64,000 nucleotides of DNA from Microvirga terrae (GTDB lineage: Bacteria; Pseudomonadota; Alphaproteobacteria; Rhizobiales; Beijerinckiaceae), in the NCBI RefSeq assembly GCF_013307435.2, contig NZ_CP102846.1:248001-312000 (forward strand), written 5' to 3'. Shown one piece after another: positions 39,788 to 63,633 of the stretch; within the stretch, counting starts at the first letter, position 1, and each line of letters opens with the position of its first letter. The translations under genes were made by a program, and so were the position numbers. The notes below the pieces were generated by a model. The model saw only the letters and a program-made list of their open reading frames with translations. It ran no database searches and was not told the DNA's origin.

Positions 39788-40828
39788 GAGCCTTTTCCGA
39801 CTATTCCGAGTCGGAGGGATTCCGCTTTGAGATCTGATGTGGCCTGCTGGCGTCCAGACATGGAGGCACGGCATGGCACGCGCTTACAGTCAGGATCTGC
39901 GGGACCGGGTGATCAAGACAGCCCTGGGTGGCGCCTCAGTGCGGCAGGCCGCCGCCCGCTATGGGGTCGGCATCTCAACCGCCGTTCTGTGGGTGCGCCG
40001 CGCTCGATCCGGCGAGGTGGCTGCCCGCCGGCAGGGTCAACCCAGGCACTCCAAGCTCGACGCGCATGCGGCTTTTCTGCTGGAGCTGATTGAAGCCTCC
40101 TCGCATATCATTCTTCACGAGATGCAGGCGAGGCTGAAGCAGGAGCGCGGCGTCTCGGCTGGCATCGGCACGCTCTGGCGCTTCTTCCACGCGCGGGCGA
40201 TCACCGTCAAAAAAAACCGCCCACGCCTGCGAGCGCGACCGGCCCGATGTCAGAGCCGCGCGCGAGGCTTGGTTTGACGGGCAGTTGGATCTCGACCCGG
40301 AACGATTGGTGTTCATCGACGAGACCAGCGCCTCGACCAAGATGGCACGCCTGTATGGACGCTGCGCGCGAGGCCAACGCTTGCGGGTCGGACTGCCGCA
40401 CGGACATTGGAAGACCACCACCTTTGTGGCCGGTCTACGCTTGAGCGGGTTTACCGCGCCGATGGTGCTGGATGGGCCGATGACCGGCCCGTGGTTTGCG
40501 GCTTATGTCGAGCAGATCCTGGTGCCGACCCTCCGGCCGGGCGACGTGGTGATCCTGGACAACCTGCCGCCGCACAAGAGCGCGACGGTGCGGGAGCTTG
40601 TCGCGGCAACAGGGGCGACGTTGAGGCGCCTGCCGCCGTATTCCCCTGACTTCAACCCAATTGAAAATGCCTTCGCCAAGCTTAAGGCACTGCTGCGCAA
40701 GGCGGCTGCCCGCACCAAGGACGCGCTCTGGCAGACCATCGGTGAACTGTTAGACGAGTTCTCGCCCGAGGAATGCGCTAACTACTTCAGGGCCGCTGGA
40801 TATGAACCGGAGTAAGCGGAAATGGCTC
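39788..40828 (+). mobile_element. IS630-family element
   Basis: Related ends GAGCCTTTTCCG at 39788 and, on the complement, GAGCCATTTCCG at 40828 enclose 1041 bp. TA lies immediately outside both (39786-39787 and 40829-40830), the expected target duplication. It contains one transposase gene disturbed by a single-base change in a run of A. Confidence 0.78.
39873..40815 (+). CDS. IS630-family transposase, two frames across an A-run
   Basis: Frame 1 from 39873 encodes the helix-turn-helix (MARAYSQDLRDRVIKTALGG, RQAAARYGVGISTAVLWVRR). Frame 2 encodes the DDE core: LVFIDETSASTKMARLYGRC, DVVILDNLPPHKSATVRELV and LPPYSPDFNPIENAFAKLK, with all three acidic residues. The join falls in eight consecutive A at 40209-40216, where frame 2 is +1 relative to frame 1; with seven A the gene would be one continuous frame. 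It could therefore be a recent one-base insertion or be bypassed by polymerase slippage on the homopolymer. IS630 elements with slippery A-runs are known. Confidence 0.8.
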
Positions 40829-41750: not shown

Positions 41751-42562
41751 GTATATCACCCCCTAATGCGTAGTGAAACTAGCTGAAGATAGCATTGAGT
41801 TCACGAAATCATAAACGAGATCCAAGTGCCATGATAACGATAGGAGCGAGCACATAAGACAATTGCGGATTTGCCGATCACAGTACGTTACCTCCGCTAT
41901 TCGGTCTTCATACTACAGTGAGAGCGCTAAACTCCAAGTGAGGTGCTGACGTCTTGGTCAGTGAGCAAACCCGAAACTCCATTGAGACCTGCAGCCGGGA
42001 TCGGCTGTGGCTATCCCCGTGCTGCCGATCTCGTTCACGACAGGTCGTCAGCAAGTCCTGCCTATACTTTCTATTGCACGGTTTAACTGCGCCGCGCCCT
42101 ACAATCGTTTATTGAGCCACTCGCCGCCGCATTATGAAAATTAGGTCACAAGAAAGCGGCTAGCATATGCTGTAACTCCGCAGTCAGCTGATAGCAACAA
42201 CCCGAGCCGCACCTTTAAGTTTTGGGTCTGATCCTTTCGTGTGGACGTGCCAAACGAAAGTATAACCGTACTAAACTAATCGGTGCTCTCGGAACTGCAC
42301 GATATAATCGAATATTTGCAGTATGTGCCTACACTGGTTCGAACGTTTCACTGACTTCTGTGCAGCTCACGAATTAGGCCACGGTCGTCTGCTGTTACCT
42401 TCAACAAAGCTGACTGCTGCCATTTCTTATCTAACGCTCCTGTTGAGAGGCTAGAGGTTGGGTACGTAACGGACCACCAGTTGGTGGGAAAAGGTTAATC
42501 CACAACCGCCAGTTCCTGCGAGACCAGCAAGATCTCGGGTGATGTGGATCGTAGGAGGTACG
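41751..42562. other. Divergent regulatory region between the FixJ-type regulator and the RND operon
   Basis: About 810 bp without a plausible gene. It separates divergent genes and should hold both promoters and any operators, but no clear palindrome or -35/-10 pair stood out. Confidence 0.4.
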
Positions 42563-43708
42563 ATGAACCCGTATCGGTCGAAGAAGTTCTACTGGAGGGT
42601 GACCGTTCTCATTGGTCTTCTAATCCAAGCGGCGTGTAATGCTCCACAGCAATCAGCGCCTCCGGCGCCGCCGCCAGCAGTCAGCGTACAGCCCGTACAG
42701 ACGCGTGGGGTAAGCCAGTCTTTTCAATTTGTCGGACACGTCAAGGCAGTGAGCAAAGTCGATCTGCGAGCCCGCATCGAAGGCTTTCTCGAGCAAGTTG
42801 CGTTCCGAGAGGGTCAGGCAGTCAGGACTGGTGACCTATTGTACCAGATCGAGAAAATTCAGTTTCAAGCGCAATTAGACCAAGCAAAAGCGAACTTGGC
42901 ATCGGCTGAGGCTGTGGCAACCAACGCACAGCTCCAGTATGAGCGGCAGCTATCTCTCTCGCAGCGCCAATTTAGCCCTCAGTCTACTGTTGATCAAGAC
43001 AAGGCGAACCTCGATAGCGCCAAGGCCAATGTCTTACAGGTGAAGGCTGCACTCACCCAGGCAGAGGTGAACCTCGGCTACACCGTGATTAGATCTCCAA
43101 TCAACGGCCTGATCGGCCGAACCGCATTCACCGTCGGGAATCTAGTCAATCCTGCGAGCGGTGTACTTGCAACAATCGTGAGTCAAAATCCGACCTATGT
43201 GCTCTTCCCAGTAAGCGTGCGAGATCTGGAGCTCATTCGTGAAGCCCGCCACGAGGAAGGAGGCGGGCTCGCCAAGATCGAGATCCGCCTCCGCCTGTCA
43301 AGCGGCACCGAGTACGCGCACCGCGGTGTGTGGGATCTGACCGATCCACAGGTTGATCAACAGACTGATACGCTCATCATGCGTGCGACGATTCCAAACC
43401 CCGACGGGCAGTTGATCGACGGCCAATTCGTGACGGTGGAGATCCGTCGCCGCATGGAGGAGCCGCGCGTGGTCATCTCGCAAGCAGCTTTGCAATTCGA
43501 CCAGAGCGGCTACTACGTGCTTGTGGTGGATGATCAGCACAAGGTGCAGCAGCGCCGGATTGAAACCGGCCCAAGCCGCGACACCAATGTTGTAGTAACT
43601 GCGGGTCTTCACGAGGGAGAGTATGTGATTGTTGATGGAATCCAGAAGGTCCAACCCGGACAAGTCGTGCAGGCCAAGGCAATAGCGCCGGAGGCCCAGG
43701 GCAAATGA
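42563..43708 (+). CDS. RND efflux periplasmic adaptor (membrane fusion protein), lipoprotein
   Basis: A 381-residue HlyD/AcrA-family adaptor. The N-terminus is a lipoprotein signal with lipobox LIQAAC, then a Pro-rich spacer. The lipoyl half-motifs are [39 protein letters not shown] and [20 protein letters not shown], flanking a coiled-coil hairpin rich in Ala, Gln and Lys ([20 protein letters not shown]). Beta-barrel and membrane-proximal domains follow. It links the inner-membrane pump to an outer-membrane channel. The ATG at 42563 has AGGAGGT 5 nt upstream, better than the in-frame ATG at 42539. Its stop overlaps the pump start by 4 bp (ATGA). Confidence 0.93.
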
Positions 43709-46700
43709 TCTCGAATGTATTCATTGATCGGCCACGCCTCGCTTTTGTCGTTTCCATCATCATCACCTTGGCGGGATTAATCGCCCTGCGTGCGATCCCA
43801 GTCGCTCAGTTCCCTGAAATTGTGCCACCTCAGGTCTCGCTCACGACCCTCTATCCTGGAGCCGATGCCGAGGTTGTCGAGACCACAGTCGCTCAGCCGA
43901 TCGAGCAGCAGGTTAATGGTGTTGATAACGCGCTCTATTATCAATCAACGAGCGGCGCCGACGGTAGTTACACACTGACCGTCACCTTCGCCCTCGGAAC
44001 TGACCCTGACATCAATACGGTTAACGTCCAGAATCGCGCTCAGCTTGCAACACCACTCCTTCCTCAGGAAGTTCAACGTCAGGGCCTTGTCATCCGCAAG
44101 AAATCAGCTGCACTATTACAAGTCATCACGTTGTCAGCCCCACGTGGCACGCACGACCCGCTGTTTCTGAACAACTATGCCACGATCAACATTATCGACC
44201 CACTTGCACGCATTCCCGGCGTCGGTCAGGCAAGCCTCTTCGGCCCTCTCGACTATTCGCTGCGTCTGTGGCTCGACCCCGCTCGTCTCACAGCCTTCAA
44301 CTTAACGCCAGCCGACGTGATCGCGGCGATCCAAACCCAAAACCTGCAAGCGGCGGTCGGCCGCATCGGTGCGGAACCCGCATCAAGCAGCCAGCAGCTA
44401 CAGCTAACCATCAAGACAAAGGGACGGCTGACCAAGACCGAGGAGTTTGGAAACATTGTACTTCGTGCAAACCCCGATGGCTCCTTCGTCCGCATCAAGG
44501 ATGTAGCCCGCACTGATCTGGGCGCCAAGACGCAAGACCGGCAAACCCGCCTCAATGGAGTGCCATCAGCAACAATTGGCATCTACCAAGCGCCAGGCGC
44601 AAATGCGGTTGAAGTGGCGCGTCGCGTGCGAGAGGTGATTGACGAACTAACCAGCCGTTTTCCAGATGATGTCCGCAGCGACGTATTCTACGACGCGACT
44701 GTCTTCGTTACAGCAACTGTCGGCGAGGTTATCCGTACTCTTATCATCGCCTTCGTTTTGGTCGCACTTGTCGTGTTCCTGTTCTTGGGCAAGGTGCGCA
44801 CCATGGTAATCCCCCTCGTAGCGGTACCAGTCTCGATCATTGGCACCTTCGCTGTTATGTTGATTGTTGGCTATTCGGCCAATACGGTATCGCTCCTTGC
44901 ACTGGTCCTCGCCATCGGGATTGTCGTCGATGATGCCATTGTAGTTACCGAGAACGTGGAGCGGGTGATTGAGGAAGAGCCGAACCTCTCAATTCCTGAT
45001 GCCACGAAGAAGGCCATGGCAGAAATCACTGGTCCTATTATTGCAATCACATTGGTTCTGCTGTCGGTATTTATTCCAGTAGCCTTCATTCCCGGAGTCA
45101 GTGGCGAGCTTTTTCGCCAGTTCGCGGTCGCAGTTTCAATCGCAATGGTCATCTCGGCGGTAAACGCTTTAACATTGAGCCCCGCGTTATGTTCGATTCT
45201 GTTGAAACGTGTAGGCCAGCGGCGCGGTCCCATGCGGTATGTTCTCAGTGGAATTGACCGAATTCGCGATGGGTATGCCGCACTGGTCCACCGTCTCGTG
45301 CGCGTAGCAGTCATCGGTCCAATCATCGTGCTTGGAGTCGCTGTGGCTTCATTCGTCCTCTTCAGGAGCACCCCACAGGGCTTCCTGCCATCGGAGGATC
45401 AGGGGGTTATCTTCGCCGCCATGCGGTTGCCCGAGGGCGCATCCAGCGAGCGGACTGAGAAGCTGGTTGCTCAGGTGGAGGATATCATTCGGCCGACTCC
45501 AGGAGTGGCGGGCGTCCTATCCGTGGTTGGTCTTAACTTTATCGACTATGTGGCCTCGTCGAACAATGCCTTTTTCGTAATCCGAATGAAACCGTACGAG
45601 CAGCGCACGGATCCATCTCAAAGCGTCGATGCGGTCATTGGACGCCTTCGTCCGCAACTCGCCGCCGTTCAGGGCGCCGTAGTCTTTCCGTTTAACCTGC
45701 CGCCTGTTCTTGGCCTGGGCAACACCGGCGGTTTCCAGTACGGCCTTGAAGCGCTGCAGGGCCAAAGTCCCAATGATCTTGCGGCAGTTATGCGCGGAGT
45801 TCTTGTCGCCGCCAACCAGCAACCGGAGCTCGCTGGTGTCTTCAGTACCTTTGCAGCAGATACACCGCAGGTTTATCTCGATATCGATCGCGACAAGGCT
45901 CAGGTGCTAGGCATCTCTACTAGTAGCATTTTCAGCGCGCTACAGGCATCACTTGGCGGATTTTATGTCGATGACTTCAATCTCTTCGGTCGAACTTGGC
46001 AGGTCAATGTTGAGGCGGAGGCTGCGTTCCGCGACGAAATCGAAGACATTTACCGGGTCTATGTCCGCAATGCTGCCGGGATGATGGTGCCAGTCCGCGC
46101 CCTTGCTCAAGCTCGTCTCGTGCAGGGACCGCAAGCGGTTATACGCTATAACGGATTTCGGGCCACAATCATCAACGGCACGCCTATGTCTGGATACAGC
46201 TCAGGCCAAGCACTTTCGGCGATGGAGCGGATCTCAGCCACGACACTGCCGTCTGGCTATGGTTTTGAATGGACTGGAACTGCACTGCAGGAGAGGACGG
46301 CAAGCGGCCAGACCGGAACCGTTCTTGCGCTCGCAGTACTCTTCGCCTACCTTTTTTTGGTGGCTCTTTACGAGAGCTGGAACATCCCCATCCCCGTCCT
46401 ACTATCCGTCAGTGTCGCTATGTTTGGCGCAATCGCGGCCGTAAAGATGTCCGGCCTCGCCTTTGATGTCTATGCTCAGATCGGGCTTGTGGTGTTAGTA
46501 GCGCTTGCAGCCAAGAACGGAATCCTTATCGTCGAGTTCGCACTCCAGCAGAGGCGCCAGGGCGCGAGCGTCCGCGATGCAGCGATTGAGGGCGCGCGCT
46601 TGCGCTTCCGACCAGTGATGATGACTAGCCTCGCGTTCATTTTTGGTCTGCTGCCTCTGGTGATTGCTGAAGGCGCCGGAGCAATTAGCCGACGTGCGGT

Positions 46701-46848
46701 CGGAACTCCCGTCTTCGGAGGAATGATTGCTGCGTCGCTGATTGGTATCTTCATCATCCCAATGCTCTATGTGGTCTTCCAGAAGTTGCGCGAGTTCGGC
46801 TCCGGCCGCACTCCCCGCGGCGAGAGCTCGCCAAGTGGCGAAGTGTGA
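43705..46848 (+). CDS. RND efflux pump permease, HAE1 family (AcrB-like)
   Basis: A 1047-residue inner-membrane proton-driven pump, the normal length for AcrB/MexB homologues. N-terminal [20 protein letters not shown] is typical. The proton relay residues are present: the adjacent Asp pair in TM4 ([20 protein letters not shown]) and the TM10 Lys in [18 protein letters not shown]. Two large periplasmic loops carry the porter domains ([40 protein letters not shown]). Substrates cannot be predicted. It is translationally coupled to the adaptor. No outer-membrane factor gene follows, so it would use a TolC-type channel encoded elsewhere. Confidence 0.95.
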
Positions 46849-53133: not shown

Positions 53134-54357
53134 TTACGTTTTGCTTATCCGAGTAGGCCAAATGCCTTGAGAGACCCGATCAGCGATCAACGTTGTCAGA
53201 GTTTCACCTGCGAACTGTGCCGCTCTTGAGATGTCACGGTACGACGGGTACGAGAGAGCCAAGCGGCAGCTTGGAACTGGATCGGTGATGGGCGCTGCCG
53301 TGAGCTGGCCAGCGCTCAGTTCGTCACAGACCGGGGCTAGAGGCAGAATGGTGTACCCATAACCATGCCGCACTAAGTCTCGCAGCGCTGTGTAACTATC
53401 CACTTCTATGACGACGTTGAGCTGAACATTTGCCTTACGAGAGTTCGTCTCCACTACATCCCGCAAGCCATTCCGCCTGGTTGGGAGGAGAAGGTCTTTC
53501 TGAGCAATCTCGCAAAAGGGCAATGGGTACTCCCGTGATAGTGCCGCCCCTGGTGGACCAATGAGGAAGAGGTCCTCGTGTAATAAGGTCTTTGTACGTA
53601 AAGAATGGGATATGCGAGGATTGTACAGAACAGCGAGGTCAATCTCGCCCTGATGCAACAGCTCCAAAAGGTAGCCGGAGTAAGCACTCGTCAGCTGCAC
53701 CAAAACTTCCGGGTGCTGAGCTTGGAACGCCGAAACTATCGGAATGGATAGAACGCTTTCAAGCGCTGAAGGCAGACCAATCGCAACTTGACCATTCAGG
53801 AGCATGCTGGAGCTACGGGTGCTAGTGCTGAGTTCGTCCCACTCCGTCACAAGAGCTCTGGCTCGTTCCAGAATGTTACGTCCCTGCGCCGTAATCACCA
53901 TTCCTCGTCGATGTCGCATAAACAACGACACGCCGAGCACATCCTCAAGCGCTCCGATTTGACGGCTGAGAGCCGACTGGCTCATCTTGAGATGATCGGC
54001 GGCGCTGCTGAGGCTGCCGAGCTCAGCTACCTGAATGAAATTTCGAAGCTGCTCCACCGTCGGGATCACGCGAGTCGCAACTTGACCATTCAGGAGCATG
54101 CTGGAGCTACGGGTGCTAGTGCTGAGTTCGTCCCACTCCGTCACAAGAGCTCTGGCTCGTTCCAGAATGTTACGTCCCTGCGCCGTAATCACCATTCCTC
54201 GTCGATGTCGCATAAACAACGACACGCCGAGCACATCCTCAAGCGCTCCGATTTGACGGCTGAGAGCCGACTGGCTCATCTTGAGATGATCGGCGGCGCT
54301 GCTGAGGCTGCCGAGCTCAGCTACTTGAATGAAATTTTGAAGCTGTGCGACGTCCAT
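53134..54357 (-). CDS. LysR-family regulator with a tandemly duplicated DNA-binding domain
   Basis: A 407-residue protein, about 98 longer than a normal LysR regulator. The winged-helix domain plus linker helix occurs twice in tandem with a 98-residue period: residues about 1-97 (starting MDVAQLQNFIQVAELGSLSS) and 98-195 (VEQLRNFIQVAELGSLSSAA), both with SQSALSRQIGALEDVLGVSL and TAQGRNILERARALVTEWDE. A single normal effector-binding domain follows (ALESVLSIPIVSAFQAQHPE, EIDLAVLYNPRI, GYGYTILPLAPVCDEL). The reading frame is intact throughout because the duplicated unit is 294 bp. Start by ATG with GAAGG upstream. The regulated genes are unknown. Confidence 0.88.
   Translation of the reverse strand: MDVAQLQNFIQVAELGSLSSAADHLKMSQSALSRQIGALEDVLGVSLFMRHRRGMVITAQGRNILERARALVTEWDELSTSTRSSSMLLNGQVATRVIPTVEQLRNFIQVAELGSLSSAADHLKMSQSALSRQIGALEDVLGVSLFMRHRRGMVITAQGRNILERARALVTEWDELSTSTRSSSMLLNGQVAIGLPSALESVLSIPIVSAFQAQHPEVLVQLTSAYSGYLLELLHQGEIDLAVLYNPRISHSLRTKTLLHEDLFLIGPPGAALSREYPLPFCEIAQKDLLLPTRRNGLRDVVETNSRKANVQLNVVIEVDSYTALRDLVRHGYGYTILPLAPVCDELSAGQLTAAPITDPVPSCRLALSYPSYRDISRAAQFAGETLTTLIADRVSQGIWPTRISKT
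53781..54051. repeat. Tandem repeat copy A (inside the LysR gene)
   Basis: This 271-bp segment matches 54075-54345 at all but two positions (54031 and 54044); the first 250 bp are identical. The period is 294 bp, a multiple of three. It encodes the second winged-helix copy of the LysR protein. Confidence 0.93.
54075..54345. repeat. Tandem repeat copy B (inside the LysR gene)
   Basis: Partner of 53781-54051, encoding the N-terminal winged-helix copy of the LysR protein. The 23 bp between the copies encode the short join (VIPT region) that differs from the gene's start. Confidence 0.93.
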
Positions 54358-54947
54358 TCTTGCCTTCGAACCGCTGCTTGCCAGCTTTAACCGATTTCAG
54401 TTATTCCGATGCTCCAGCATACTTCTTCGCTAAAGGAAACCGGAACGAGGAACCCTTGAACGCGGAGATTGTGTCACGATCGGGAGATGAGCGCGCGCAG
54501 CGAACGGGACCAAGCTACCAATAGCAGAGCCTTCTCCAGCTAGGAGCAATACTGCTAACAGAGCGCTATCATCTTCAACGGCCGAACCAATGTATGGTAA
54601 AAACGTACTCCGGGTTGTACAACTGTGCGCTGGATTCCTGGCGCACTAATACAGAACAAACTACCAAATATGGACCCTAGCACTTGGATTGTTGACTTCC
54701 AGTCAGGAGAAGGCGTCTTGATTTCAGCTAAATCAAACGGGCGAGGGAGAAGTGCAATCACACTTCACCGAGTCCGCTGGGTAAGTTGCGCAAAGCGCCG
54801 CCTGACAACCCCTGCTAACACAACTTCTGGGCCTCTGTCGTAGTCATTGTGAAGAACCTACTGCCGCAGGAACCGTGTCCGAAGTCCCACTGAGCGTCGG
54901 ATCCGGTCGAATGTGCGCTGGATCGGGTCAAGGTCTTCGTCGGGTCG
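54358..54947. other. No recognisable gene
   Basis: About 590 bp upstream of the LysR gene, containing its promoter region; no coding feature was recognised. Confidence 0.4.
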
Positions 54948-55350
54948 TCACGGTTGGGCTGCCCTGGAGCGGGTCGCTGTGCCGGATGCTGCGGTGCCGC
55001 TCGAGGCCGAGTTGCGAAAGCTGGCGCGGTACTGGGCCGGCGACACGCCCAGCCGCTGCTGGAAGACGAGCCGCATCCGGTCGGCCGTGCCGAAGCCGCA
55101 GTCACGCGCCACTGCCTCGAGCAGGTGGTCACTGCCTCGAGCAGCATCCGGGCGGCATCGATCCTGGCGCGCTCGACGAATTCGTGCGGTGTAACCCCGG
55201 TTTCCTGCACAAAGTGACGGGTCAAGTTGCGGTTGCTCATCCCGACAACAGCCGCCAAGGTCGCAAGCGAGTGACGGCTGCCGATGTGCGTCATCACCTA
55301 ATCTTGGATCCGGGCAATCGGCGAGGCTGGGTCGACCGGCGCCGTTAAAT
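54948..55350 (-). pseudogene. GlxA-family regulator, C-terminal fragment, frameshifted
   Basis: Two minus-strand frames spell the AraC-type DNA-binding end of a GlxA-family regulator. Upstream, PVDPASPIARIQD is followed by a TAG where the family has Trp (QDWV). Then come MTHIGSRHSLATLAAVVGMS, NRNLTRHFVQETGVTPHEFV and ARIDAARMLLEAV. The frame then breaks and continues as EAVARDCGFGTADRMRLVFQ, QRLGVSPAQYRASFR. The break is caused by a 20-bp tandem duplication (CACTGCCTCGAGCAG at 55110 and again at 55130). The DJ-1 domain is absent here. Confidence 0.78.
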
Positions 55351-55575
55351 AGGAGCCGACCTCGCATTCTGGGAGACAGCCAAGTCGAGATCCTCCGATC
55401 CGTTAGGGAAACGCCGCAACATCCGATTATGGTTTCATCAAGAGATGACGGAGCCGCCAACCAGTCAAGCAGATGATCAGGCCCGTGGACGGAGCTGCTA
55501 CAGCATCCTCAAAGGAATTGAAGTCAACGCGGCCCAACTGTCAAACTACAGCTTCCCCGACGCGCCAAAACCGAT

Positions 55576-57128: not shown

Positions 57129-58184
57129 CTACTCTGCAGGTTCGGACTTGAGTGTTCTTGAAACTGTGCCCTCCTTTCCCTGCTGCTCGCGCAGCCAGAG
57201 GTTATGGTTGGCCTCTGCCCACGCAAGATCGACCTCTCCACTGGCCATGCCTTCAAATGCACCCTCCTCCCCGACTGTTCCGATATATATGTGGGCGAGC
57301 ATCACCGTGATGAATAGAACCCCCACAATCGCGTGGAGCGCCTGTGTAATCTGCATTCCGTTGACGCCGGTGACAGTGAACGGAAACAGCAATGTCATGC
57401 CGGAAGCTGCCATAACGAGGCCGCCAATGATAGCAAACCAGAACACGAGCTTTTGGCCCGCGTTGAAGCGCCCGGCGTTTGGATGTGAGTTGGTAAAAAG
57501 CCCTCCTCCGGCCTTCAGCCACGCCCAATCAACCCGATTAGGGACATTATCGCCGATCCACACCGCCCCCATTAGGAGAACACCGACGATGAATGGCCAA
57601 GCGAGAAAGTTGTGAGCATATTTGGACCACTGAGATAGAGCGGAAAATGCCTCTGGCCCAATGATCGGCATGAGCAGACGTTTGCCGAATATGTAGTTTA
57701 GGCCGCTGAGCGCAAGTATAACAAAGCATGTCGCAGTCATCCAATGTGTGAACCGCTCAAATGCGTTGTACCGAGCAATTTTTCGGCCCGATAATTCGTT
57801 TGGCTGAGTTCGGATTCGGCCTTTGATCAAGAAAAACACCGCAAGCAGCAAAATCATGGCTCCTGGAACGGCAGCGCCGATCCATGGCATCCAACCCTCA
57901 TGGAAGCGGCGCCACTCACGGCCCTGCGGTTGCTCTACAAGAGCAGCCTTGCTGTCTAGAATAGTAATGCGGCCCTTGATCGATGGCGAATGCTCAAGCA
58001 ACGCTGGCTCATTGACTGACTCTCTCGTAGGATTGATTGGATCGGGTTGCCGTTGCGCAAATGCGGGATCTAACAGCGTCATGACGGCAAAGACGATCAT
58101 GATCATCATGGTACGAATAGGCTTGTGCCAAGGTATCACGGGAATAATCCTCAATTCGCGGCAACTATGTTTTAGTTCACACAT
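57129..58184 (-). CDS. fdhC: Formate dehydrogenase cytochrome b subunit (gamma)
   Basis: Integral membrane di-heme cytochrome b that passes electrons from formate dehydrogenase to quinone. A signal-like segment (MMIMIVFAVMTLLDPAFAQ) and a periplasmic stretch of about 70 residues precede four transmembrane helices: AAVPGAMILLLAVFFLIKG; FERFTHWMTATCFVILALSG with heme His; YAHNFLAWPFIVGVLLMGAV with His; and QALHAIVGVLFITVMLAHIY with two His. This matches the FdoI/FDH gamma family, extended by the N-terminal exported part usual in alphaproteobacteria. The start is uncertain: an ATG at 58184 overlaps fdhB by 8 bp, and another at 58109 begins at the hydrophobic segment. Last gene of the operon. Confidence 0.9.
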   Translation of the reverse strand: MCELKHSCRELRIIPVIPWHKPIRTMMIMIVFAVMTLLDPAFAQRQPDPINPTRESVNEPALLEHSPSIKGRITILDSKAALVEQPQGREWRRFHEGWMPWIGAAVPGAMILLLAVFFLIKGRIRTQPNELSGRKIARYNAFERFTHWMTATCFVILALSGLNYIFGKRLLMPIIGPEAFSALSQWSKYAHNFLAWPFIVGVLLMGAVWIGDNVPNRVDWAWLKAGGGLFTNSHPNAGRFNAGQKLVFWFAIIGGLVMAASGMTLLFPFTVTGVNGMQITQALHAIVGVLFITVMLAHIYIGTVGEEGAFEGMASGEVDLAWAEANHNLWLREQQGKEGTVSRTLKSEPAE

Positions 58185-58773
58185 CGACGGACTCGCCATA
58201 CGCCGTTTTCCAGCCCCATGCCCCTGATCCGTACCCACGTTTAACCACGCGCTCTTTATAAATCTGGGCGATAATTTCGCCATCGCCTGCTAGGAGCGCC
58301 TTGGTGGAGCACATCTCCGCGCACAATGGCAGTTTTCCCTCAGCAAGGCGGTTAGAGCCATATTTCTCGTACTCTGCAATCGACAGATCGGCTTCAGGTC
58401 CTCCAGAGCAGTACGTGCATTTGTCCATCTTACCGCGCGATCCGAAGTTCCCAACGCGCGGATACTGCGGGGCTCCGAATGGGCATGCGTAAAAGCAGTA
58501 CCCACAACCAATACAAAGATCCTTTGAATGGAGCACCACGGCATCGGCTGTGGTGTAGAAGCAGTTTGTCGGACACACTGCAGCGCACGGTGCGTCGGTA
58601 CAGTGCATGCAGGCCATCGAAATGGAGCGTTCGCTCGGCGTGCCATCATTGATGGTCACAACGCGCCGCCGATTGATGCCCCACGGTACATCGTGCTCGT
58701 TCTTGCAAGCAGTAACACACGCATTACACTCAATGCAGCGATCCCCATCGCAGAGAAACTTCATCCGTGCCAT
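58177..58773 (-). CDS. fdhB: Formate dehydrogenase iron-sulfur subunit (beta)
   Basis: A 198-residue ferredoxin-like protein with four [4Fe-4S] sites relaying electrons from the Mo/W centre to cytochrome b. The cysteine groups are Cys13-x2-Cys16-x2-Cys19-x3-Cys23 (CIECNACVTACKNEH), CMHCTDAPCAAVCPTNCF, CIGCGYCFYACPFGAPQYPR, and CTYCSGG with CAEMCSTKAL. It has no signal peptide; in this family it is exported with the alpha subunit. The gene starts 17 bp after fdhA and overlaps the probable fdhC start. The length fits FDH3-type beta subunits (about 200 residues), shorter than E. coli FdnH because the C-terminal membrane anchor is missing. Confidence 0.93.
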   Translation of the reverse strand: MARMKFLCDGDRCIECNACVTACKNEHDVPWGINRRRVVTINDGTPSERSISMACMHCTDAPCAAVCPTNCFYTTADAVVLHSKDLCIGCGYCFYACPFGAPQYPRVGNFGSRGKMDKCTYCSGGPEADLSIAEYEKYGSNRLAEGKLPLCAEMCSTKALLAGDGEIIAQIYKERVVKRGYGSGAWGWKTAYGESVDV

Positions 58774-58790
58774 TGTTCCCGTCCTTGCGC

Positions 58791-61733
58791 TTATGCTGCC
58801 CGAATCTGACAGAGAGTCGCTTTCCCTTCATGCATGTTCGTGACGGGATCGTATCCGTATGTGGTCAGCGTATTCAGGCTCTCTCCCAAGACAATTGGGT
58901 CTGCGCCTGGCGGATAGCGATGCCTTAAATCGTCTCCTTCATACCACCCGGCGAAGTGGTAGGGCATGAATGCGACACCGCGTCCTACGCGATCCGTCAC
59001 AAGGGCCTTAACTTTGGTTTTGGCACCATTCTCTACCCCCAGAACCCACACCCAGGCGCCGTCCGTGATGCCTCGCTCGCTCGCGTCTGCCGAGTTGATC
59101 TCCACAAACATTTCCTGCTGCAGTTCTGCCAACCATCGGTTTGAACGAGTTTCCTCTCCCCCACCCTCGTACTCGACGATACGTCCTGAGGTAAGGATAA
59201 TTGGGAAGTCTTTAGCGATGCTGGCCTCGACCGCCGCTCGTTGCACAGAGAAACCAAGATTTGGAAGGCGGAATTGGCGCTCATCGGGCCGAGTCGGGTA
59301 GTCTCCGACAAGATCAGGACGTGGCGTGTAGATGGGCTCGCGATGCACGGGTACTGGATCCGGTAGATTCCAAGCGTTCGCTCGGGCTTTGCCGTTCCCA
59401 TAGGGCATGACCCCGTGATCTAAGCAGACCCGTTGAATACCACCTGAGAGATCCGTGGCCCAACTCACTGTATCGACTTCACTGCCACCGATGCTCGTAA
59501 TGATTTCCCATTCCTCTGGGGTCAAATCCCCGTCCCAACCGAGCTTCTTCAGGACGCTCATTGTGATCTCGGGGTATCCATCAGTGAGATCAGACCCGGC
59601 AGAGAAGGAATCCTCGGCAAGAAGCGTTTCACCGTTGCGCTCGACCCCAAAACGAGCCCTAAATGTGCTTCCGCCCTCCTTAACATGTAAATTGGTGTTG
59701 TAGAGAATGTGTGTTCCTGGATGTCGAATCTCTGGTTTGCCCCAGCATGGCCACGGCAGGCCATAGTAGTCTCCCCCAACGTCGGGATCATCCTTAGGAG
59801 CTCGCAATGTCAGAAGGTCGAATTTCCCCTGATTTTTCATGTGCGCCTTTAAGCGCTCTGGTGACTGACCGCAATATCCAGTTGACCAGCCGCCTCGGTT
59901 AATCTCTCTCAGAAGGTCCTCTGCACTTGGCACCGTGCCCTCAACGTGGATATTCTTGAATAATTGCTCTGCGAACCCCAGCTTTTGAGCAAGTAAGTAG
60001 AGGATCTCGTAGTCTGTTTTCGACTCAAAGATCGGTTTTACGATCTGTTCGCCCCATTGAAGCGAGCGGTTGGAAGCCGTGCGTGATCCGTCCATTTCAA
60101 GCGAAGTACAGGCTGGCAGGAGGTAAGTGTTATCTGCACGGTCTGACATCGATGCGAACGATGTTGGATGCGGGTCGACCACCACAAGTAAATCAAGGCT
60201 CTCCACCCCTTTAACTGCTTCCGGCATACGTGTAACTGTGTTGCCACCATGTCCCATCGCCACCAATGCTTTTAGAGGACTGCGCTGATCAATCTGATCT
60301 TCGGGTAAAAGCACCGCGTCAAACCACCTGGTCGAGGTAAGGCCGGGGGTCTCCATGCTGCCCTTACGATCACGCCCCTTTCGCCCAGCTTTTGGCGGCA
60401 CCTCGTCAAATCGAGACTGCAGCCAGTCGTAATCTACCTCCCAGACCCGCGCCCAGTGCCTCCATGCGCCTTCTACTAGGCCGTAGTAGAGCGGCAAGGT
60501 CGTACAATCGAGTCCAACGTCGGTTGCGCCTTGTACATTCGTATGGCCACGAAATATGTTCGCGCCGGTGCCAGGCGAACCAACATTCCCGGTGGCCAGC
60601 AGTGCGATGCAAGAGGCTCGGACATTGGCCGTTCCGACTGTGTGTTGGGTCTGGCCCATGGCCCAAATCAACGTCGAGGGCCTTTGCTTCGCAAACATCT
60701 CCGCAATCCGACGCATCTTCTCGCGCGGAATACCACAGACGCGCTCAACCTCCTCCGGCGTCCACCTTGCTACTTCCTTACGAACCTCATCCATTCCGTA
60801 GACCCGCTTTTGGATGAATTCTTTGTCTTCCCAACCATTCTCAAAAATGTGCCAGAGAAGACCCCATATGATCGGTATATCTGTCCCTGGCCTCATCGCT
60901 ACATACTCGGTCGCATGTGCTGCCGTGCGGGTGAATCGTGGATCGATGACGATGAGATTTGCTCGGTTGAGCTCCTTTCCAGCCAGGATGTGTTGCATGG
61001 AAATTGGGTGCGCCTCAGCCGGATTTCCGCCCATAATGATCATCGTTTTGGCGTTGCGGATATCATTATAGGAGTTCGTCTGCGCACCATACCCCCAGGT
61101 ATTTGCAACACCGGCAACTGTAGTGGAATGGCAAATACGGGCCTGCATATCGACCGAATTTGTTCCCCAGAACGCGGCAAACTTTCGTAGCAAATAGGCC
61201 GCCTCGTTGGTGAACTTTGCCGATCCCAACCAGAAGACCGAGTCCGCTCCGTACTGTTCTCGAAATTCGAGCAGCTTATCGCCAATTTCACCAATAGCTT
61301 GCTCCCACGTCAGCCTCTGCCATTGGCCGCCGACCAGCTTCATTGGATACTTCAGCCGCCGCTCACCTTGAACTATCTCGCGAATAGCAGCACCTTTGGC
61401 GCAATGAGTCCCGCGATTGATTGGACTGTCCCACGATGGCTCTTGCCCGATCCAGACTCCGTTCACAACTTCGGCGGTCACGGTGCAGCCGACCGAGCAA
61501 TGCGTGCAAATGTTCTTCTTGATCTGCACTTTGGAATCGATTGCGGAGCCTGCCGCAGCACTTACTTGTCTTATAGCTGCAGGGTATGCCGACCCAAGCG
61601 CCGCCAGCCCTCCTACCGCAATACCGGACTTGTGCAAAAAGGCACGCCGATCGATCGCACTTGTTGTTAGCTCTGCTGTGAAGGCGGAAACTCCCGGGCG
61701 GCTCGCTGCGCCGCCCCTGCGCTTGATCAACAT
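58791..61733 (-). CDS. fdhA: Formate dehydrogenase catalytic subunit (alpha), Cys type
   Basis: A 980-residue Mo/W-bis-MGD oxidoreductase oxidising formate to CO2 on the periplasmic side. A Tat signal lies at residues 28-50 (DRRAFLHKSGIAVGGLAALG). The [4Fe-4S] site is Cys76, Cys79, Cys83 and Cys111 (NICTHCSVGC; THCAKG). The metal ligand is Cys201 (DMQARICHSTTVAG), encoded by TGC, so this is a cysteine, not selenocysteine, enzyme; the adjacent catalytic His202 is present. FDH motifs RVYGMDEVRKEVARWTPEEV and TNVQGATDVGLDCTTLPLYY follow, and a C-terminal MGD-binding domain (GITDGAWVWVLGVENGAKTK) ends the chain. The ATG has AGGAAGTAGGA just upstream. It follows the small Tat-peptide gene by 4 bp. 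Confidence 0.96.
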   Translation of the reverse strand: MLIKRRGGAASRPGVSAFTAELTTSAIDRRAFLHKSGIAVGGLAALGSAYPAAIRQVSAAAGSAIDSKVQIKKNICTHCSVGCTVTAEVVNGVWIGQEPSWDSPINRGTHCAKGAAIREIVQGERRLKYPMKLVGGQWQRLTWEQAIGEIGDKLLEFREQYGADSVFWLGSAKFTNEAAYLLRKFAAFWGTNSVDMQARICHSTTVAGVANTWGYGAQTNSYNDIRNAKTMIIMGGNPAEAHPISMQHILAGKELNRANLIVIDPRFTRTAAHATEYVAMRPGTDIPIIWGLLWHIFENGWEDKEFIQKRVYGMDEVRKEVARWTPEEVERVCGIPREKMRRIAEMFAKQRPSTLIWAMGQTQHTVGTANVRASCIALLATGNVGSPGTGANIFRGHTNVQGATDVGLDCTTLPLYYGLVEGAWRHWARVWEVDYDWLQSRFDEVPPKAGRKGRDRKGSMETPGLTSTRWFDAVLLPEDQIDQRSPLKALVAMGHGGNTVTRMPEAVKGVESLDLLVVVDPHPTSFASMSDRADNTYLLPACTSLEMDGSRTASNRSLQWGEQIVKPIFESKTDYEILYLLAQKLGFAEQLFKNIHVEGTVPSAEDLLREINRGGWSTGYCGQSPERLKAHMKNQGKFDLLTLRAPKDDPDVGGDYYGLPWPCWGKPEIRHPGTHILYNTNLHVKEGGSTFRARFGVERNGETLLAEDSFSAGSDLTDGYPEITMSVLKKLGWDGDLTPEEWEIITSIGGSEVDTVSWATDLSGGIQRVCLDHGVMPYGNGKARANAWNLPDPVPVHREPIYTPRPDLVGDYPTRPDERQFRLPNLGFSVQRAAVEASIAKDFPIILTSGRIVEYEGGGEETRSNRWLAELQQEMFVEINSADASERGITDGAWVWVLGVENGAKTKVKALVTDRVGRGVAFMPYHFAGWYEGDDLRHRYPPGADPIVLGESLNTLTTYGYDPVTNMHEGKATLCQIRAA

Positions 61734-61737
61734 GATC

Positions 61738-61953
61738 CTACTTCCTCAATGTCTCGTAGCCGTTGGTGCGGTAGAATGCCTTCACATCGTTGCTCTCACG
61801 ATAGCGCGCTTTGGTTTCCTCCGACCCAGCGTCGAAAGCTTGAGCACTTGTGACAGCCAGTTGCGGGGCCGTGGCGATGGCCGCAGAGCCCCCACCTAGG
61901 GCAAGTATGAAGTTGCGGCGGTTAAGTGTCTCACGTGATTTGCTTCGACTCAT
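61738..61953 (-). CDS. Formate dehydrogenase-associated Tat-signal small protein
   Basis: A 71-residue protein: a twin-arginine signal (TLNRRNFILALGGGSAAIAT) and a short mature part with ESNDVKAFYRTNGYETLRK. This is the small Tat-substrate family regularly found directly upstream of fdhA in proteobacteria (TIGR02811 type). Its role is unproven; assembly or protection of the exported enzyme is assumed. It ends 4 bp before fdhA, so the two are tightly coupled. Confidence 0.85.
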   Translation of the reverse strand: MSRSKSRETLNRRNFILALGGGSAAIATAPQLAVTSAQAFDAGSEETKARYRESNDVKAFYRTNGYETLRK

Positions 61954-62013
61954 CTATCCCTCCACGGCTCTGAGATCTCGAACATCACGACCCGGCGCAG
62001 ATCTCGTTACATA

Positions 62014-62646
62014 TCAAGGGTGGCCAATGGTCTCTGCCGAGGTGCGGGACTCCATCGCGAACGCCTGGGCTTCAATCTCAACAAAGAGCGAGCCAACCTT
62101 GGCAACGGCTCGGTAAAAGCGTGCAGATTTCGCGCTTTCCAGATCCGAGAAGAACTGCGGTGCCCAAGAAAACAAATGGCGTTCGAAGAAAGACCTTTGA
62201 GTGAGGAGCATCGAGGAAAATTGGCGCGAAGCGAGACCTGCCATTATCTCACAAAGAACCGCAATATGATCCTCAGGCTCGCGTAGCCATTCAGCTGAAG
62301 TCAGCCCAAGAATTGCCAAGTCGCCGCGCAGTTTTACTAGCGGGCGCTCGAGCAGAAAACCCGTCATGTAGTAAGATGCATATGGGACGATTTCACCACG
62401 GCCTACGCCCACAAACAGTTCGGTGAACTCACGATTCAGCGAGTTAGGATTTGTTCTTCGGGCCGCGGACGCAAGGTCCGCATAGGCTCGACCCAACGGA
62501 CTCTCATCTCCTGCCAGGCGGCCGATCCTCGAAACGAGATCACGACTTGGAGTTCGCCTCAGAAGGCCCGCGAGAAAACTGTACTGGTGCGCGCGGGCAA
62601 GGTCCACATCGTCGGGGGTCGAGGCGATCGCTCTATCACCACGCAT
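62014..62646 (-). CDS. TorD/DmsD-family chaperone for formate dehydrogenase
   Basis: A 210-residue all-helical cytosolic chaperone. Typical features are YSFLAGLLRRTPSRDLVSRI, NREFTELFVGVGRGEIVPYA with the conserved Glu-Tyr/Phe-x-x-Leu-Phe pattern, SYYMTGFLLERPLVKLRGDL and EPEDHIAVLCEIMAGLASRQ. Such proteins bind Tat signal peptides and hold the apo-enzyme until the Mo cofactor is inserted. The ATG at 62646 is preferred (GGAG upstream); a TTG ten codons earlier is also open. It lies 60 bp upstream of the Tat-peptide gene in the operon. Confidence 0.88.
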   Translation of the reverse strand: MRGDRAIASTPDDVDLARAHQYSFLAGLLRRTPSRDLVSRIGRLAGDESPLGRAYADLASAARRTNPNSLNREFTELFVGVGRGEIVPYASYYMTGFLLERPLVKLRGDLAILGLTSAEWLREPEDHIAVLCEIMAGLASRQFSSMLLTQRSFFERHLFSWAPQFFSDLESAKSARFYRAVAKVGSLFVEIEAQAFAMESRTSAETIGHP

Positions 62647-62904
62647 CGCCGGTACTCCGGCTCCCGAGCCAGGCAAACGCCTTAGAAGCTCTCGGGGCTA
62701 AACCTCGTATGCACGAGGATCGGTCGATCCAAAAGTCGAGCGATTCAAAACCTAGCGCAAGAACGGCTTCCATAGCAGTCTCATCCGTGCGAGCAATGTA
62801 AGATCGTTAGAATAGGTGTTTGGGGAGCAAGACGAGCTAACCCAGACGCAATCATTGGCGGATAACCTTAAGTCGCGGCTACAACTGGTGAATAGGTAAG
62901 GCCC
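62647..62904. other. Gap inside the formate dehydrogenase gene set
   Basis: About 260 bp separate the DUF3306 gene from the chaperone gene, wider than the other gaps in the cluster. A promoter for the chaperone-fdhABC part could lie here, but none was identified. Confidence 0.3.
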
Positions 62905-63633
62905 TCACATCGGGGTTGCGCCGCCGTGTCGTCGCTGAGCTCGCACGGATCCATCATGCCAACCACAGGCGAAGGGAGACAGATGGCTGACGTGGGAGAC
63001 CGATCTGGCGTCCGGCCCGGGCATAGCCGTCTTATCATGCGGGTGCGAGGAACCATACGGAAGGTGCATAGGCTCCGCCCCTTCCCTAGGGTCTCCTTCC
63101 TCGTTGTGCGCAGCAGCGTCAATTTGTGGGCCTGCAGCTGGGTCGCTGAAAATAGTCCTCGCCGTTCCTTCGTGGAACCGAGCTGGCCGGGGCGGTGGAG
63201 CGGTAACGCGCTGCACCAAAGTAACGGCATCAGGGCCGTGCATCGGGCCACTTCCGGGTACGTCCCCGCCGGAGTTCCAATCATAGGCATACTCCCGCGC
63301 TTCACTCACGTAGTCTCGGATGCTTGGGTCAAGGGTCCACATGCGCCTCAGGGCAGCGTTCCGCAGTGCCGTCGGAACACCAGGCTGCATGAACAGAGAC
63401 AGATCCGTATCTGCCCGCAGTTCGTCAATATCGGGTAGATAGGCAGACTCTCCTGCGGAGTGCGCGGCAGCGGCCTGGTCAACTGTGTTTGCTTGAGATA
63501 CAAGATGAGGCGTTCGAGATGAGATACAGTCGCTCTCAGAAATGGGGAGTGATGCAGGAGTCGCCGTCTCCGGCCGGGATGTTTCTCGCTTACGCCGTGA
63601 CCACCGCAGAAAAAAACTCTCATTATGATCCAT
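62905..63633 (-). CDS. DUF3306 protein, formate dehydrogenase accessory
   Basis: A 242-residue protein. The DUF3306 signature is FFLRWSRRKRE at the N-terminus and YLPDIDELRADTDLSLFMQP, GVPTALRNAALRRMWTLDPS, IRDYVSEAREYAYDWNSG in the middle. The C-terminal part is low-complexity and His/Pro-rich (HLPYGSSHPHDKTAMPGPDA). DUF3306 and DUF3305 genes nearly always accompany this type of formate dehydrogenase in Rhizobiales; their biochemical role is unknown. Its start overlaps the DUF3305 gene by 11 bp. Confidence 0.87.
   Translation of the reverse strand: MDHNESFFLRWSRRKRETSRPETATPASLPISESDCISSRTPHLVSQANTVDQAAAAHSAGESAYLPDIDELRADTDLSLFMQPGVPTALRNAALRRMWTLDPSIRDYVSEAREYAYDWNSGGDVPGSGPMHGPDAVTLVQRVTAPPPRPARFHEGTARTIFSDPAAGPQIDAAAHNEEGDPREGAEPMHLPYGSSHPHDKTAMPGPDARSVSHVSHLSPFACGWHDGSVRAQRRHGGATPM

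Follow-up and report, generated by a model that had tools for sequence, protein, structure and literature searches.

LysR proteins are among the largest families of bacterial regulators. In their usual form, which is not strictly defining since two-HTH forms exist, a chain of about 300 amino acids carries one helix-turn-helix (HTH) domain, and estimates of how many DNA-binding heads an active complex requires are usually drawn from tetramers in which each chain bears one. LysR-type regulators bind at T-N11-A sites as dimers or tetramers and respond to an effector. Constructs of the LysR DNA-binding domain in the PDB, namely 5xxp (101 aa) and 3m1e (94 aa), are single domains alone as judged by their length, and they dimerise. 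Here, we describe a LysR-type regulator gene of Microvirga whose product deviates from the usual form, having 407 amino acids and two HTH_1 domains. It is located at positions 53134–54357 (minus strand) of the window, i.e. the whole 64-kb stretch of DNA that was analyzed (positions 248001–312000 of its contig).

The two-HTH architecture as such is not exceptional and occurs in other bacteria. All counts from our genome searches are lower bounds. With the tandem HTH region as query matches were obtained in 27 of 397 genomes of the order (own genome included, eight candidates scored per genome), and besides the own one a single match spans both HTHs (locus L068 of genome G447, an ORF of 472 aa). 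When L068 was compared with plasmids, 57 of 3,008 matching records contained a place covering at least 80% of it; the four plasmid proteins that were fetched have 403–420 aa, are annotated merely as LysR regulators and all contain two HTH_1 domains. In the phylum (398 sampled genomes, Pantoea protein as query, E 1e-40, four candidates per genome) matches were found in 27 genomes, 25 of them covering both HTHs and the effector domain (start at or before residue 12, end at or after residue 381) and the other two starting at 110 and 112. Twelve loci were kept from this search, and all ten that were scanned have two HTH_1. In total, two HTH_1 together with LysR_substrate were detected by Pfam in 15 of 15 such proteins scanned. 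A search of the class with L068 (E 1e-50, four candidates per genome, no positive control) gave no match in 385 genomes and, given these settings, carries no weight. Members of this group, among them those of Pantoea sp. At-9b (L091) and Sodalis praecaptivus (L092) as well as L089, L090 and L068, show the order HTH_1, HTH_1, LysR_substrate like the Microvirga protein. They are mostly 395–437 aa long, and some longer ORFs may start too early. Annotated genes of gallate/oxalomesaconate metabolism adjoin three of four two-HTH plasmid loci, the fourth being without them. According to PMC9942251, GalR of Pseudomonas putida is a LysR regulator of the gal operon and is divergent from galB; “helix-turn-helix” and “DNA-binding domain” are absent from its main text. 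A further paper (PMC11602165) concerns an ordinary LysR. In open-licence titles and abstract beginnings, queried with a few phrasings, no description of a two-HTH LysR group was found, which is not evidence that the group is undescribed.

Assignment of the Microvirga gene to the LysR-type regulators is based on the ORF, which starts with ATG, and on Pfam. HTH_1 (PF00126) matches in two stretches (E 2.4e-41), as expected of the N-terminal winged helix of this family, and LysR_substrate (PF03466) matches once at residues 187–381 (E 5e-40), corresponding to the C-terminal effector domain (53215–53799, minus strand, converted from residues). Among the best 25 of 58 NCBIfam matches none reached its equivalog cut-off, the top one being NAC with 214.5 versus 309. 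A putative Shine-Dalgarno-like AAGG, read by eye, is found at 54363–54366 directly upstream of the ATG (region 54358–54371, minus strand). An internal GTG start at 54069 would yield a one-HTH product of 311 aa; it was ranked low, with no Shine-Dalgarno-like stretch visible by eye before the GTG. A promoter scan yielded a single promoter-like site, which lies within the gene, and a terminator scan yielded three terminator-like sites; with shuffle means of 0.8 and 1.9 this is near expectation. The antisense ORF 53788–54390 merely mirrors the repeat described below. Within its own genome the DNA of the gene has a single match, and of 45 places listed in a protein search the second best shows 30% identity.

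The gene contains two 271-bp copies at 53781–54051 and 54075–54345 that are 294 bp apart from start to start and 99% identical. Base by base they differ, in gene direction, at offsets 7 and 20 of the block, near the start of the copies, and the next 250 bases are identical. This confirms the in-frame tandem duplication with two mismatches that was described in the earlier note. Chance is excluded by the TRF array score of 1116, only one other array, short and unrelated, being present in the 64 kb. The copies do not adjoin: they are separated by a non-repeated linker of 23 bp (54052–54074, minus strand; codons TRVIPTVE), absent from the earlier note, that in sequence comparison resembles, in register, the way a LysR effector domain begins. 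Copy 1 (54075–54345, minus strand) encodes the N-terminal DNA-binding domain with winged helix and linker helix (about residues 5–94), as delimited by repeat comparison, TRF and a modelled helix at 59–83. Copy 2 (53781–54051, minus strand) encodes the second one, which according to the repeat and the alignment of relatives has the same connection to the effector domain that is seen in ordinary LysR proteins. At the protein level HTH1 and HTH2 are 96% identical over 92 residues. In an AlphaFold2 model built from an alignment of 7, both units consist of a winged helix and a long helix, with block means of about 80–89 over the winged helices; the tether at 80–98 is of low confidence and the effector domain is poorly modelled (mean pLDDT 66; pTM 0.42). 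Since winged helix and long helix appear in both units of this model, the repeat unit looks like a complete LysR DNA-binding domain; it corresponds to the above PDB constructs, which in contrast with the Microvirga protein do not contain it doubled. ORF, Pfam and model thus agree with the earlier proposal that a single uninterrupted chain bears a pair of winged helices along with one effector domain.

We give a probability of roughly one half to the reading that this is a two-headed LysR of independent origin, in which LysR segments were fused, their cores were evened by conversion and copy 1 represents an extra head. The main alternative, a possible but more tentative one, is that 271 bp were recently duplicated in tandem in a simple event that left 23 bp of filler at the junction; the doubling would then have no effect on function or a mildly deleterious one and would still await its loss, with copy 2 doing the work. 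The identical core of 250 bp speaks for the latter. The nearest relatives found (L018, L019, L020, L093 and L094) have one HTH and align with 46–53% identity over the second HTH and the effector domain, which counts for the first reading; Pfam was run on four of them (L018, L020, L093, L094), and the alignment of L019 has the same form. In a search of 48 genomes of the genus, 15 (own included) show a match at E 1e-30, the three best outside the own being L018, L019 and L020 (52–54%). With up to 38 candidates scored per genome no other match at this level or better extends into copy 1, a point in favour of the duplication. The statement of the earlier note that LysR proteins normally have one winged helix each is correct for the nearest relatives but not for the two-HTH LysR proteins in many other genomes. 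Gene neighbourhoods of the relatives differ from that of the Microvirga gene: L018–L020 from the same genus are accompanied by an MFS transporter and rpsB (ORFs read by eye), L093 and L094 on Rhizobiales plasmids by annotated thiamine pyrophosphate enzymes, acyl-CoA dehydrogenase and CoA transferase. At the DNA level 34 of 298 family genomes (own included, two candidates scored per genome) gave a match, the other listed ones being short (38–173 bp). A plasmid search with the DNA of the gene returned two records with short pieces at 70% and 74%, and a scan of genome contigs six distant relatives with ORFs of 279–317 aa.

The edges of the copies bear on both readings. Copy 1 begins with MDVAQL, the family form (five relatives have MDIAQL or MEIAQL), and has Gln (Q-L-Q) where copy 2 keeps Arg 105 (Q-L-R), which is invariant in the five aligned single-HTH relatives; the equivalent position in 18 relatives listed at the DNA level is Arg in 11 and Lys in 7 (by eye). 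Copy 2 is preceded by V-E before Q-L-R, and V-x-Q-L is the N-terminus in 6 of the 18 relatives listed, which favours a fusion. The family form of the N-terminus in copy 1 is also explained by plain duplication, for which, with the invariant Arg in copy 2, a mutation of copy 1 alone suffices (the second mismatch is not polarisable). On the other hand, each copy has its own family-like flanks on both sides of an identical core, and the two mismatches are confined to one edge, which is the pattern expected from gene conversion between fused related units, even if two mismatches are few for an argument from clustering.

A difficulty for a simple duplication is the junction. In the relatives the HTH unit is followed by G-x-V-A-I-G-x-x-P-T-V-A or near variants; in the Microvirga protein copy 2 is followed by GQVAIGLPSALE and copy 1 by GQVATRVIPTVE. 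We compared the 24 linker bases with the homologous bases of 19 relatives, all of at least 40% identity. On average 12.84 of 24 bases match. Shuffled linkers average 6.67, with 6 of 20,000 doing equally well, and for the start of the gene's own effector domain the same relatives give 11.68 of 24. Shifting the linker to other offsets lowers the score to 10.26 (offset −3, the next best) and to 3.3–8.5 for the rest. Only one of 5,470 in-frame non-LysR coding segments from ten ORFs of the window, a control that keeps codon bias, and none of 397 segments from the rest of the LysR gene itself were as good as the linker. In a control with LysR genes 114 of 29,701 in-frame segments score as high, 36 of them at an effector start and 78 elsewhere according to a crude label (60 of the 114 being listed). 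Shuffling with free offset is a weaker test (42 of 5,000 on mean matches, 72 of 5,000 on the longest run), and all these values concern 24 bases whose resemblance was seen before being tested. A duplication thus has to accept a filler that is non-random in look and in exact register with LysR effector starts. Moreover, a slipped copy would reproduce the effector start of this very gene, with which the linker shares only 11 of 24 bases. Due to its in-register likeness to the relatives combined with this poor agreement, the linker probably stems from another LysR gene. In favour of the duplication, no donor was found in the own genome besides the linker site itself (up to 3 mismatches allowed); against it counts that direct repeats of such size are normally deleted quickly. 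As judged from these sequence comparisons, a simple recent duplication explains the junction poorly, and it is suggested that two related LysR genes fused and then underwent gene conversion. The earlier idea of a very recent event is partly borne out: the identity of the core must be recent, but the linker and the position of the mismatches at one edge suggest that an older or chimeric doubling was converted.

An artefact of assembly or library is very unlikely. Direct repeats are known to trouble assemblers, which has to be counted in its favour, but the two base differences between the copies, the different flanks on both sides and the LysR-like linker, found nowhere else in the own genome, make a simple stutter unlikely; in addition the reading frame is kept and the assembly (6.13 Mb) consists of 4 contigs. 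Membership in the established GalR-like group of two-HTH LysR proteins, some of which adjoin gallate genes, is extremely improbable in spite of the same domain order and similar length, as the Microvirga protein shows 23–27% identity to five members versus 46–53% to single-HTH relatives, its near-identical HTHs contrast with those of 17 group proteins (among L068, L089–L092 and L095–L106) that are only 23–40% alike, and no gallate gene is present among 11 neighbouring ORFs scanned.

Concerning the genomic setting, there is no evident partner gene beside the LysR gene. Megablast of 40–64 kb of the window against plasmids gave five records, four of them from Microvirga, with best places covering 3–17% of the query at 78–86% identity; this fits a Microvirga genome, and the contig is perhaps a large plasmid. 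Upstream at 54815–55460 (minus strand) two overlapping frames each contain a portion of an AraC-type HTH, in one case scoring below the Pfam cut-off; near 55110–55145 some 15 bases occur twice (by eye). These frames look like a broken AraC gene, and from this neighbourhood the LysR gene itself may be on its way out. Downstream a small ORF without family match is followed by an AraC-type regulator. In the upstream direction the next recognisable operon is that of formate dehydrogenase (57.1–61.7 kb): the minus-strand region 57129–63633 encodes formate dehydrogenase alpha, FDH3 beta and gamma together with a TorD/nitrate-reductase-delta-like chaperone and a DUF3306 protein. Further away, two consecutive frames at 39837–40815 (plus strand), presumably resembling IS630, look like a transposase split by a frameshift, and 42539–46848 (plus strand) contains a probable RND efflux pair, 78–79% identical at the DNA level to plasmid sequences of Microvirga ossetica and M. 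lotononidis that carry an RND pump annotation.

For the two-headed LysR of independent origin we propose the following course of events. Two related LysR segments would have been fused in frame, one effector-domain start being joined to the N-terminus of the second LysR. Recombination between the tandem copies, or gene conversion, would then have removed the differences between the two HTH cores. In the resulting protein copy 2 and the effector domain most likely form a normal LysR subunit, and copy 1, complete with winged helix and linker helix, would be an extra DNA-binding head held by a flexible tether some 17 residues long. With four such heads, a dimer could occupy a pair of operator half-sites for which a tetramer is normally required. 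By simple arithmetic, the loss of one copy takes away 98 codons without disturbing the frame. Recombination between the copies would have precisely this effect and restore a regulator of normal type with 309 aa, and cells of both kinds are therefore expected in a population. A bolder version, which we regard as unlikely, is that two-headed LysRs form repeatedly by fusion of neighbouring genes and that here conversion keeps the heads identical, the dimer does the job of a tetramer and deletion switches cells back.

As far as can be judged from the assembled sequence, the observation is real in the assembly. The two-HTH architecture also occurs elsewhere, and the Microvirga protein is probably a case of separate origin whose heads are near-identical and whose junction is informative. 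A chain with two identical heads, together with the group that has two different ones, would offer a direct test whether the number of heads or their arrangement sets the choice of operator.
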